Assembly: GCA_029978085.1 (NCBI GenBank)
Contig: JAPOJV010000013.1
Location: 1 to 42,188 of the forward strand
Direction: 5' to 3'
DNA from: a bacterium
GTDB lineage: Bacteria; Planctomycetota; Planctomycetia; Pirellulales; UBA1268
DNA length: 42,188 bases
Part shown: piece by piece, positions 12,439-15,407 of the stretch
Numbering within the stretch: the stretch's first letter is position 1
Layout: the number at the start of each line of letters is the position of its first letter
Made by a program: the position numbers and the translations under genes
The notes under the pieces: generated by a model
What the model saw: the letters and a program-made list of their open reading frames with translations, nothing else
Told to the model about the DNA's origin: nothing
Database searches by the model: none

Positions 12439-12487
12439 AAGCCCCCCAAGGCGCAAGTCCCCTCGCTTCCGCTCAGGGCTTGGATGG
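12434..12487 (-). repeat. Terminator-like repeat family R2, copy 1
   Basis: Read on the minus strand it starts CCATCCAAGCCCTGAGCGG, continues AAGCGAGGGGA and ends GGGGGGCTTTTATG. The same two blocks flank a longer hairpin at 23825-23916. AAGCCC pairs with GGGCTT and a T-run follows, as in a terminator. The element contains the stop codons of both convergent genes, birA and the methyltransferase. It is shorter than the other copies because the inner hairpin is missing. Confidence 0.7.
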
Positions 12488-13516
12488 GCGGGCCACGACG
12501 CAGACTTCGCGGCCACCGGTCGAGAGCTGCCGGGCCTGCGGCCGAAACCCCCACGCCCGAAACGCATCGAGCCATTCCGGTAACGCCGCAGCCCGCGACC
12601 ACTCGGGCAGCTTGAGCGTGGCGATGATCCCCATGAGCCGCACGCCGGGAGCGGTGGCGATCCGCCCCAGCGACTCCATCGTGCTCACTGGGTCGATGTT
12701 CATGTCGCAGACAAGCCAATCGAAACCGCGAAACTCGCGCAGCTTCACGTCGCGGGCCCGCTTTCGCCATTGCGTGAATCGCGGATGGGCGGCAACGACC
12801 GGATCGACGAGGGCGGGGTCGATGCCCACCACATCGAGCCCGGCTTCGAGAAGTCGCTGGCTGGCGCCCCCGGGCGCGGCGCCGAGTTCGACGGCCCGCT
12901 GGCCGCGTTCCAAACGCAGTTCGAACGTCGCCACCGCCTCGTCGAGCTTGAGCCAGGCGCGACTCACCGCTGTCGGGGCGAGCGTGCCTGGATAGATGCC
13001 GCCGGGCCAGCGGCTCGGGGGCGTCGCCGCGCGATGCCAGCCCACCCACCACCGCTCGGGCGAGTCGATGACGCAGTCGAGCACCTGATCGCCGGGTGCA
13101 GCGAGCCCCGACGCCGACGCCAGGCCGACGGCAGCGACGAGCCGGTCCCGGATCTCCTCGAGCGGTGCGGCGCAGGCAGGGTCCCGCGGCCAGACATGCA
13201 CGGCCTGCCATGGGCCAGTACCCGCCACGGCGATCGCGGCTGCCACCCGGGCTGCGTCGTCGTGCCCCGTCACTTGGCCGAGCGAGTGGATGCAGGCGCG
13301 GCCGAACACGAGATCGGGAAAAAAGTCGGCGGGTGGATCGAACGGCGGCTGGCCCGGCGGGTCGAGCCGAAACGTGACGACCCCGCGGCGCCAGGCCGCC
13401 TTGCGAATCTGCGGCAGGACTGCCTCCTGCCGACGAACGAGTTCCGCCTCCGCCCCGCCCCGACAGGCGACGAGCAGAAATCGACCAGCAGATGCAGCGA
13501 CGGGCGAGGATTCCAT
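12473..13516 (-). CDS. RlmM-like 23S rRNA 2'-O-ribose methyltransferase (FtsJ fold)
   Basis: A SAM-dependent RNA methyltransferase of the RlmM/FtsJ type, 347 residues. The N-terminal half (to about 190) is a THUMP-like RNA-binding region. The catalytic half starts at SRAWLKLDEA, the characteristic RlmM entry with the catalytic Lys, then VELGAAPGGASQRLLEAGLDVVGIDPA (SAM site), FDWLVCDMNIDP with the catalytic Asp, and IIATLKLPEW with a further catalytic Lys. In E. coli RlmM modifies C2498 of 23S rRNA; the exact site here is inferred. The start at 13516 is the first ATG downstream of the terminator at 13535-13579. The last residues, PSKP plus the stop, are supplied by the R2 repeat. Confidence 0.82.
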   Translation of the reverse strand: MESSPVAASAGRFLLVACRGGAEAELVRRQEAVLPQIRKAAWRRGVVTFRLDPPGQPPFDPPADFFPDLVFGRACIHSLGQVTGHDDAARVAAAIAVAGTGPWQAVHVWPRDPACAAPLEEIRDRLVAAVGLASASGLAAPGDQVLDCVIDSPERWWVGWHRAATPPSRWPGGIYPGTLAPTAVSRAWLKLDEAVATFELRLERGQRAVELGAAPGGASQRLLEAGLDVVGIDPALVDPVVAAHPRFTQWRKRARDVKLREFRGFDWLVCDMNIDPVSTMESLGRIATAPGVRLMGIIATLKLPEWSRAAALPEWLDAFRAWGFRPQARQLSTGGREVCVVARPSKP

Positions 13517-13534: not shown

Positions 13535-13579
13535 CAAAAAATCAGGCCGGCCCGGGCGCCCAAGGGCCCGGGCCGGCCT
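13535..13579 (-). terminator. Rho-independent terminator ahead of the RlmM-like gene
   Basis: Arms AGGCCGGCCCGGGC (13544-13557) and GCCCGGGCCGGCCT (13566-13579) are perfect over 14 bp with an 8-base loop. On the minus strand the stem is followed by GATTTTTT. It would end leftward transcripts coming from the lysine-rich peptide gene and insulate the methyltransferase gene, whose start is 19 bases beyond. Confidence 0.8.
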
Positions 13580-13774
13580 TTCTCGTCTGAACGCTGACTC
13601 CCCGGATTCACTTCCGTCCGCGGGCGAGCCCGGGAGGACGAAGGAACCGGAGACCAAGGACCGCGAGGCTCCTGAAGGAAACCTCGGGGGCAGAAGCGAC
13701 CGTGGCCGAAGCCACGAGACTCCCCTGCCGAGGCTGTGTCGAGTCACCCGTTGCCGGGCAACTCAACGGATGCC

Positions 13775-13837
13775 TCAGCCGTGGCCCTTCTTCTTCTTGG
13801 CGACCTTCTTGGCAGCCTTCTTCTTCTTCTTGGCCAT
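13775..13837 (-). CDS. 20-residue lysine-rich peptide
   Basis: The frame encodes MAKKKKKAAKKVAKKKKGHG, with 12 lysines in 20 residues. AGGAG lies nine bases upstream of the ATG, and the downstream region ends in a strong terminator 195 bases later, so it has the layout of a real gene. The sequence resembles the basic tail repeats of bacterial histone H1-like and HU-tail proteins, which bind nucleic acid through charge. It is too short for a fold. Nucleic-acid binding is inference. An upstream extension in the same frame has no ribosome site. Confidence 0.6.
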   Translation of the reverse strand: MAKKKKKAAKKVAKKKKGHG

Positions 13838-14204
13838 CGATCTGGCTCCTTCCAAACGAGCACCCGAACTAGGCTCACGTCCGCTCCCCGGGGCGCTCAC
13901 ACGACGGGAACGAACGACGTCATCGGCATGTGGAAGACCGCGATTGCTCGTGATCCCCGCACGTCGATGTGCACGTTGTGAAGGATTCTCAGGAAAACTG
14001 TCAAGAGAAATTCCCGAATTTTTTCCATTTTTTCTCGCTCCGAACCGGCGCGTGGCCTCACAACCCCACCACCTCACTCACCGCGATCGAGCGCGCGACC
14101 CGGTCAGCGACCCGAGATCGGCTTGGTATCATCGGTGATCGCGGCGCGCGTGATGCGACGCGAGTGGGCGACCGCCTTCCCGTTCTTCGTTCGATAGAAA
14201 CACG
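13838..14204. other. Non-coding divergent region with AT-rich island
   Basis: About 365 bases between divergent genes. On the minus strand a TTGACA (at 13999-14004) could be the -35 of the lysine-rich peptide gene, although no good -10 follows. Beside it is a perfect inverted repeat AAATTC-CC-GAATTT (14007-14020) that would suit an operator. For the aminotransferase only a weak TATCAT (14127-14132) is seen. No RNA gene was recognised. Confidence 0.4.
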
Positions 14205-15407
14205 ATGCAGAACTCATCCTGTTTGCGGCTCGCAGGCCGCATGAACGCCCTCGAGCCCTCGGCCACGTTGGCCATGGCGGCGCGGGCGCAGGCGCTCGCC
14301 GCCGCTGGCGCCGACGTGGTCGATCTCTCGGTCGGCGAGCCCGACTTCCCCACGCCGGCGCACATCTGCCGTGCCGCCGAGGCGGCCATCGCCGCCGGCA
14401 AGACGAAGTACACGCCGGCCGCCGGCATCCCCGACCTCCGCAAGGCGGTTGCCGCCGACTTCACCCGGCGCACCGGCCTGCCGGCCACCGCGGCCCAGGT
14501 CGTCGTGTCCAACGGAGCCAAGCACTCGCTGCACAACGCCTTCACGGCGCTCCTCGACGCCGGGGACGAGGTGATCGTGCCCACGCCCTACTGGGTGAGC
14601 TATGCGGAACTCATCAAGCTCGCCGGCGCGAAGCCCGTGCTGGTCGAGACGAAGATCGAGGACGACTTCAAACTCCGCCCCGAGGCGCTGCGGGCCGCCC
14701 TCTCGCCGCGCACCCGGATGCTGCTGCTCTGCTCGCCGAGCAATCCCACGGGGGTGGTCTACTCGGCGGCCGAACTGACCGCCCTGGCCGACATCGCCAT
14801 CGAGGCCGATATCGCCGTGGTGGCCGACGAGATCTACGACCAGCTGGTGTTCGACGGCCGCCCGTCGATCTCGTTCCCCACGCTCCGGCCCGGGCTCGCC
14901 GACCGCACGGTCGTCGTGGCCGGCGTGAGCAAGACCTATTCCATGACGGGCTGGCGCATCGGCTGGACGATCGCCCCCGAGCCGCTCTCCAAGGCGATCG
15001 CCAACCTCCAGAGCCAGGAGACCAGCAACCCGTGCAGCGTCAGCCAGCATGCGGCCCTGGCGGCCCTCACCGGTCCGCAGGAATGCGTGGCCGAGATGCG
15101 TCGTGAGTTCGAGCGGCGGCGCGACCTCGTGGCCGCCCGGCTGCGGGCGATGCCGGGCGTGCGGCTGCCGGAGATCGGCGGCGCCTTCTACGCGTTCTTC
15201 GACATCCGTGCGCCGCTCATGCGGTCGAGTGCCCGGGGCATCGCCACCAGCCTCCAGTGGTGCGAGGCCCTCCTCGAACAGCATCAGGTCGCGCTGGTCG
15301 CGGGCAGCGCCTTCGGCGCCGAGGGGCATGTGCGGATGTCGTTCGCCGCCTCGACGGAGAAGCTCACACAGGGGCTCGACCGGATCGAGCGGTTTCTCGC
15401 AGGCTGA
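14205..15407 (+). CDS. Aspartate-type aminotransferase (class I/II, PLP)
   Basis: A cytoplasmic PLP-dependent aminotransferase of the AspB/AspC type, 400 residues, probably interconverting aspartate and oxaloacetate with glutamate/2-oxoglutarate. Landmarks: VVDLSVGEPDFPTP near 40, KYTPAAGIPDLRKAV, the PLP-phosphate region SNGAKHSLHNAF, LCSPSNPTGVVYS with the conserved Asn, ADEIYDQLVFDG with the Asp and Tyr that hold the cofactor, SKTYSMTGWRIGW with the Schiff-base Lys at 243, and VRMSFAAS with the carboxylate-binding Arg. No ribosome site precedes either candidate ATG (14205 or 14241). The cysteine desulfurase gene begins one base after the stop, so the pair is an operon. Confidence 0.93.
   Translation: MQNSSCLRLAGRMNALEPSATLAMAARAQALAAAGADVVDLSVGEPDFPTPAHICRAAEAAIAAGKTKYTPAAGIPDLRKAVAADFTRRTGLPATAAQVVVSNGAKHSLHNAFTALLDAGDEVIVPTPYWVSYAELIKLAGAKPVLVETKIEDDFKLRPEALRAALSPRTRMLLLCSPSNPTGVVYSAAELTALADIAIEADIAVVADEIYDQLVFDGRPSISFPTLRPGLADRTVVVAGVSKTYSMTGWRIGWTIAPEPLSKAIANLQSQETSNPCSVSQHAALAALTGPQECVAEMRREFERRRDLVAARLRAMPGVRLPEIGGAFYAFFDIRAPLMRSSARGIATSLQWCEALLEQHQVALVAGSAFGAEGHVRMSFAASTEKLTQGLDRIERFLAG

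Follow-up and report, generated by a model that had tools for sequence, protein, structure and literature searches.

Coding potential of the lysine-rich reading frame

The locus raises the question of whether a short run of lysine codons in the window (the whole stretch of 42,188 nt analyzed here) is a gene and, if so, what its product and its RNA might do. A sequence-only reading of this DNA had claimed a complete gene for a 20-residue, 60-percent-lysine peptide. The coding region and its neighbors are as follows.

13775..13837, minus strand: ORF for MAKKKKKAAKKVAKKKKGHG including the TGA stop (sequence, conservation, third-position change)
13846..13851, minus strand: ribosome-binding site AAGGAG, eight bases before the ATG; AGGAG invariant in 51/51 distinct leaders
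12473..13516, minus strand: RlmM-like methyltransferase gene, downstream neighbor, probably separately transcribed (profile match, synteny)
14205..15407, plus strand: class I/II aminotransferase gene, divergent upstream neighbor (synteny)

Read from 13837 to 13775 on the minus strand, the codons are ATG GCC AAG AAG AAG AAG AAG GCT GCC AAG AAG GTC GCC AAG AAG AAG AAG GGC CAC GGC TGA. The peptide MAKKKKKAAKKVAKKKKGHG thus has the 20 residues first claimed for it, with lysine at 11 of 20 positions (55%) rather than 60 percent, and it lacks an SPKK motif. A single copy of the gene was found in its own genome. A second pattern match there (L255) proved to be a 192-aa protein, which we take to resemble formaldehyde-activating enzyme, and not a lysine peptide. 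When the 20-mer was used as a protein query, 15 of 40 genomes (own included) matched at E up to 10, a result which is uninformative alone because the query is too short and of low complexity.

Conservation was assessed by DNA search using the 705-nt intergenic stretch. Of the 40 genomes searched, among them the window's own, 36 gave a match; beyond the window's family (f1), what matched was mostly the lysine-codon tract alone. The sequence-only reading had named loss of the frame or its ribosome site in related genomes as evidence against a gene; in 20 of the 21 relatives' loci examined, the window's own included, the ORF was present with ribosome site and start in place, and the exception (L020) is cut by a contig end. 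The 26-nt core of the downstream hairpin was then scanned over GTDB contigs and returned 63 stretches. In 58 of these a lysine ORF was found upstream (one, L111, with an N gap), so that AAGGAG, ATG, frame, stop and downstream hairpin recur jointly, as the proposed gene layout would have it. Of the remaining five, four (L060, L083, L087, L109) break off no more than 300 nt upstream of the hairpin, and the fifth, L075, is unrelated. L075 lies on a contig labelled Bacillota and carries the hairpin core without any of the surroundings, by chance or as an unrelated hairpin. The 58 stretches together with the window's own locus are referred to below as the 59 related loci, their membership in f1 being inferred from the shared locus. 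Several MAGs with this locus are labelled Candidatus Kuenenia stuttgartiensis or Planctomicrobium piriforme, labels which are probably wrong.

The complete ORFs of the related loci, 58 in all, encode 25 different proteins in 37 different DNA sequences. Lengths are 18-27 aa in 48 of them and 48-67 aa in the other 10, lysine makes up 47-63%, and the stop codon is TGA in 24, TAA in 19 and TAG in 15. Among 13 distinct ORFs of 63 nt, differences per codon position were 0.057, 0.083 and, at the third, 0.168; 169 codon differences were synonymous and 123 were not, a non-synonymous share which is not small because lysine blocks shift. In-frame indels alone are weak evidence of coding, since AAG tracts slip in threes. 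As judged from these alignments, the stronger signs are the fixed ribosome site, start and stop, the switching between stop codons and the excess of third-position change. Comparison therefore gives good support to an ORF far beyond chance and to a real, conserved gene.

With respect to synteny, 55 of the 59 related loci have the RlmM-like gene as the next one downstream, in the same orientation, a linkage which the sequence-only reading had suggested looking for; the other four stretches end no more than 280 nt on. The RlmM-like product is 46-72% identical across the related loci, the window's own excepted. That of the window scored 67.7 bits against an RlmM cut-off of 176, and is thus a divergent relative. 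The TACTAT box that stands 7 nt ahead of its start codon suggests a leaderless mRNA for this gene. The aminotransferase gene stands upstream in the opposite orientation in 51 of 59 loci, and all eight others have less than 1,600 nt of upstream DNA.

Predicted promoter, transcript and terminator

The predicted signals at the two ends of the transcript are as follows.

13999..14004, minus strand: -35-like TTGACA, predicted promoter; TTGAC[AG] kept in relatives
13975..13980, minus strand: CACAAC, putative -10 box by its placement 18 nt after TTGACA
13588..13774, minus strand: 3' UTR without sequence conservation; better fold than in mononucleotide shuffles (z -4.3 at this locus)
13575..13587, minus strand: hyperconserved GACGAGAAAGGCC, foot of the hairpin; 99% mean identity in 55 distinct rows
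13544..13579, minus strand: 14-bp perfect hairpin, predicted intrinsic terminator (fold; one genome copy at up to 3 mismatches)
13536..13541, minus strand: T6 run following the hairpin, of differing length in relatives

Three of the 59 related loci have too little upstream DNA to be scored. In 50 of the other 56, TTGAC[AG] stands among the first 300 nt upstream, compared with 3 of 56 on the reverse strand, and 46 of the 50 copies are 155-197 nt from the ATG. The loci without it are L069, L091, L092 and L101, which encode long proteins, and L078 and L081. CACAAC followed 18 nt past TTGAC[AG] in 39 of 50 loci; as a -10 box it is a weak match, far from the sigma-70 consensus, and a scan with that consensus found no promoter. 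From the spacing of these elements, transcription would start near 13968 and give a transcript of about 430 nt.

The claim of a perfect terminator held, in that the stem has 14 bp with 100% complementarity; it lies about 195 nt past the stop codon and so leaves a long 3' UTR. The hairpin is followed by GATTTTTTGG, and stem and tail (GATTTTTT) have the form of an intrinsic terminator, with a U run that is short in some relatives. A terminator scan alone was not significant (1 found versus a mean of 0.9 in shuffles), and on the alignments it is conservation, not the scan, that makes the terminator significant. GACGAGAAAGGCC and the hairpin were 99-100% identical in 55 distinct rows compared with 43-46% for the 40 nt at -60 to -21, of which only the flanks are independent evidence because the 26-nt core had been the search key. 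Within the 3' UTR hyperconservation is confined to the 3' end, which, like the wide spread of the gene, had escaped the sequence-only reading. No conserved sequence was seen in alignments of the 3' UTR body, and its folding z-scores ranged from -1.6 to -6.2 in 14 chosen loci against mononucleotide shuffles, a lenient control. Allowing up to one mismatch, GACGAGAAAGGCC occurs at 15 places in the window's own genome and its reversed control at 7; of the 15, only the one in the window precedes a terminator-type hairpin, as judged from the folds by eye. In one relative (L005, genome G018), tandem copies of CCCGGCCTGATTTTTG stand directly past the terminator, as if the 3' foot had been amplified.

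A pseudoknot in the 5' leader

The main new result concerns the 5' leader, which lies outside the coordinates of the sequence-only reading and is predicted to form an H-type pseudoknot. Its strands, all assigned by covariation, are as follows.

13906..13916, minus strand: stem S1, 5' strand (CGTTCGTTCCC)
13891..13898, minus strand: stem S2, 5' strand (GAGCGCCC)
13878..13888, minus strand: stem S1, 3' strand (GGGAGCGGACG)
13858..13865, minus strand: stem S2, 3' strand (GGGTGCTC); ends 6 nt before AAGGAG

Alignment of 51 distinct leaders (A1) gave two crossing helices, S1 with 12 pairs and S2 with 8. Standard pairs occupied 95.4% of the cells compared with 86.4% after shuffling, and none of 500 shuffles was as high. 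Both sides had changed in 15 of the 20 pairs (8.1 in shuffles), and cells with a double change numbered 112, compared with 38.6 when shuffled and 7-18 when slid. The count of further pair types, a less extreme measure of covariation, was 34 versus 29.5 in shuffles, with 6 of 500 as high. Two crossing helices, compensatory changes and an adjoining ribosome site, which characterize an H-type pseudoknot leader, were thus all found.

A search of single sequences was made in 25 chosen leaders, 11 from related loci and 14 from other families (two of the latter identical). In 24 of these the pseudoknot was equalled by at most 6 of 300 dinucleotide shuffles; for the remaining leader, that of L336, the search gave no pseudoknot within the set limits. 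The nested minimum-energy fold of the window's leader was ordinary (z +0.73), which is expected if the signal sits in the crossing pairs and gives no support of its own. It is the crossing pairs of the aligned leaders that carry the case for a pseudoknot. Loop letters were poorly conserved, and stems as well as loops differed widely between families; a second, cross-family alignment (A2) was left uncounted, the stems being poorly aligned there.

Rfam scans at gathering score returned no matches in the whole window or in 11 related loci, and under permissive settings neither the window's leader nor that of L299, a locus from another family, was matched. Between 13400 and 14250 the permissive scan did return five hits, all outside the leader; with E 0.63 at best and scores that fell far short of gathering, they were treated as chance.

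The leader and the lysine-rich genes in other families

A covariance model of S1 only (R1) was run against 196 genomes of the order at E up to 0.01. It matched 49 of them, 33 of the 36 sampled from f1 and, more weakly, 16 of the 160 others. The 16 non-f1 genomes list 20 places, of which 15 were examined. Ten of these (L331-L337, L339, L340, L343; families f2, f7, f15 and f16) precede lysine-rich ORFs (27-53% lysine) with AGGAGCCA, and five (L338, L341, L342, L344, L345) have no lysine-rich ORF. Leaders were also found at L050 (f15), L053 (f13), L054 (f11) and L299 (f2), all four left out by the stricter filters, so that the genome-wide count is a lower bound; L053 scored just E 0.71 with R1. 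At L299 both stems are perfect while the letters are very different. In total the pseudoknot leader was found before lysine-rich ORFs in seven of 20 sampled families, the window's and six others. The proteins behind it in the other families are 41-112 aa long (13 loci; the ORF of L054 is cut by the contig end), some have as little as 27-34% lysine, and several, among them L334, L335 and L336, contain SPKK or RSPKK.

A lysine-rich gene of a second type, with a GTG start and a GGAGG site, is widespread in the order. The pattern GGAG-N7-10-RTGGCNAARAARAAR, which also picks up some unrelated MAKKK proteins, occurred in 156 of 196 genomes and its reversed control in one. All 60 places examined, taken from 60 genomes of the pattern list, were lysine-rich ORFs; start and site are partly a matter of choice, since the places had been selected for both. 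With 15 earlier loci added, 73 of 75 gave an ORF by the scripted pattern, and L150 and L158 were missed by it though lysine ORFs are present. Lysine made up 42-65% in 72 of the 73, the other (L040) being gapped by N, and L040 apart the ORFs were 21-110 aa long. Both gene types occur in at least eight genomes (G036, G039, G056, G094, G136, G173, G182, G198). One GTG-type locus, L200, matched R1 at E 0.0016, the model consisting of S1 only. The pattern was also run phylum-wide and matched 114 of 294 genomes; the 13 loci examined are a small part of the places listed. They showed the GTG type in one family that lies outside the order but within its class (L287-L292, L296; 37-58% lysine), and L293, L294, L295, L297, L298 and L300 were unrelated proteins which merely start MAKKK. 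By eye, the leaders of the GTG-start genes with a GGAGG site (L195-L254, L287-L292, L296) look structured in a manner unlike the pseudoknot.

The 3' motif (GACGAGAAAG plus hairpin) is nearly invariant in the related loci and present in 42-46% of the loci examined elsewhere. Among GTG-type loci, 31 of 73 have AC[GA]AGANA within 250 nt after the stop (reverse strand, 3; shuffled mean, 0.8), and among pseudoknot-type loci 6 of 13 have it (reverse strand, 1; shuffled mean, 0.3); from these counts the motif is widespread but not universal. A looser pattern, ACGAGANAGNNCCG, gave 35 places in ten other genomes versus 56 for the reversed control, and so is not itself enriched. Of the 30 ACGAGANAGNNCCG loci examined, six stand before a hairpin with a T tail, each of them downstream of a lysine ORF; L135 has a hairpin too, but no T run and no lysine ORF. 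Five of the places had no locus assigned, among them G035:C17:35320, which is part of the lysine gene L046. When the 196 genomes were scanned for the 3' motif with a pattern of fixed length, nothing was found, because hairpin length varies.

Interpretation and alternative explanations

Comparison establishes the structure of the gene, its conservation, the pseudoknot and the association of this leader with lysine-rich ORFs in seven families. We consider it probable, though well short of certain, that this gene is monocistronic and encodes a minimal polycationic peptide of the H1-like kind, which binds DNA or RNA and whose output is set by the pseudoknot. A conserved promoter would give the mRNA of about 430 nt, with the pseudoknot leader beside the ribosome site and a hairpin terminator with a purine-rich foot at the other end. 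The peptide would most likely be abundant, its lysines binding DNA (or RNA) and helping to condense the nucleoid, and the pseudoknot would most likely set the level of translation. The sequence-only reading had suggested that such a peptide could compact DNA or bind RNA or the envelope. Expression, nucleic-acid binding, a role in the nucleoid, and the direction and trigger of leader regulation are thus what we infer for this gene. More speculatively, the peptide might bind the pseudoknot of its own leader and so exert feedback, which would be in keeping with a product rich in lysine and a leader whose loops keep few letters.

Some observations would accord with an RNA as the main product, its 3' end (GACGAGAAAG plus hairpin) acting as a 3'-UTR-derived small RNA or as a protein site and the ORF serving mainly to load ribosomes. 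Only the 3' end is near-invariant in the related loci (99-100% against 43-46% at -60 to -21), and in ten other genomes the six T-tailed-hairpin loci out of 30 all have the lysine-rich ORF upstream. Outside the family, however, the motif is found in just 31 of 73 and 6 of 13 loci while lysine richness is found throughout, the pattern is not enriched in the ten genomes (35 places versus 56), and a composition conserved over 18-112 aa indicates that the protein matters. We regard this explanation as unlikely. Slightly more doubtful still is that the pseudoknot is a metabolite riboswitch and not a control element based on protein or structure. The Downstream-peptide motif likewise precedes short ORFs, as its description in PMC2864571 has it. 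Against this, stems and loops differ greatly from family to family, few loop letters are kept, and the leader has no Rfam match; the poor conservation of the loops makes a classical small-molecule riboswitch less likely. The form seen here, an H-type pseudoknot adjoining a ribosome site, is nevertheless that of the SAM-II and preQ1-II riboswitches.

Much less probable than either is attenuation of the downstream RlmM-like gene through translation of the ORF as a leader peptide. That gene does follow in 55 of 59 loci with a strong terminator between, but the terminator is some 195 nt off across a 3' UTR of unconserved sequence, a TACTAT box is found 7 nt ahead of the RlmM-like start codon, and constant linkage is not seen, with no RlmM-like match in 75 other-family loci that span only 1.6-4 kb each. 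A chance reading of an AAG repeat has hardly any probability left: such repeats are simple and slip in threes, yet ribosome site, start and stop are conserved, third-position change is in excess and the ORF recurs widely, and as far as comparison goes this reading is refuted.

Returning to a gene for an H1-like peptide, the 20-aa product is apparently a shrunken relative of the bacterial histone-H1-like proteins. Because lysine-rich low complexity can converge, it is common architecture and not alignment that argues for homology between the longest and the shortest proteins. A broader reading is offered only tentatively: an order-wide class of pseudoknot leaders may control planctomycete H1-like proteins, plausibly by product feedback, with the window's family having mostly reduced the protein to a free H1 tail of about 20 residues.

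A 2012 tomography study on the condensed nucleoid of the planctomycete Gemmata reports that no histone homologues were found in planctomycetes and leaves the condensing factors open (PMC3440768). The lysine-rich gene, with its pattern in 156 of 196 genomes of the order, is a direct candidate for such a factor; Gemmata itself lies outside the sample. The gene is too small and repetitive for easy detection by similarity search, and its leader is a structured RNA with strong covariation and no Rfam match. A free polycation of 20 residues would, if true, be an extremely small architectural protein.

Comparison with known families and systems

The 20-mer matched no protein family in profile searches. 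Pfam HC2 (PF07382) was matched at E 0.02-0.03 by two of three long versions; the scores, 14.8 bits for the 65-aa and 15.2 bits for the 97-aa protein against a gathering cut-off of 40, place them outside the family, and neither the 20-mer nor an 80-aa relative matched HC2. An H1-like profile gave 12-13 bits for two long relatives against a cut-off of 80. The loose class of lysine-rich H1-like proteins comprises Lys/Ala-rich low-complexity chains, often with SPKK-type motifs. In this loose sense the proteins described here belong to it by composition and by the SPKK or RSPKK of several relatives. The likeness to a histone H1-like tail noted in the sequence-only reading thus fits a series running from about 20 aa to 41-112 aa, with the formal family matches below cut-off.

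H1-like lysine-rich bacterial proteins are already known, and the window's peptide fits none of their families. Chlamydial Hc2 (HctB, PF07382), the H1-like protein of Burkholderiales (NCBIfam NF038053) and AlgP share with the present proteins, by their descriptions, lysine-rich repeats and variation of length by repeat number; Hc2 is described as 165-237 aa with lysine-rich pentamers (PMC2848022). Unlike these, the window's peptide has 20 aa, and two long relatives score below the profile cut-offs. In literature searches of general aim, no pseudoknot leader came up for these known proteins.

With respect to the leader, neither a planctomycete pseudoknot leader nor a lysine-rich micropeptide was among the matches listed in the open-licence literature. 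The Downstream-peptide motif of cyanobacteria (RF01704) is alike in being a structured leader before ORFs, typically of 17-100 aa according to its entry in PMC2864571; it belongs to another lineage and other ORFs, and the window's leader has no Rfam match. The Rhodopirellula-1 candidate RNA is listed in the same paper, without a model, for Proteobacteria and Planctomycetes (PMC2864571). For control, the closest comparison is with chlamydia, where, according to PMC3469542, the small RNA IhtA represses translation of the H1-like hctA and expression of the protein is lethal in E. coli; an H1-like protein might therefore need tight control. At the RNA level, expression of an H1-like protein is limited there by a separate small RNA (PMC3469542) and would be limited here by a predicted pseudoknot in the mRNA's own leader.
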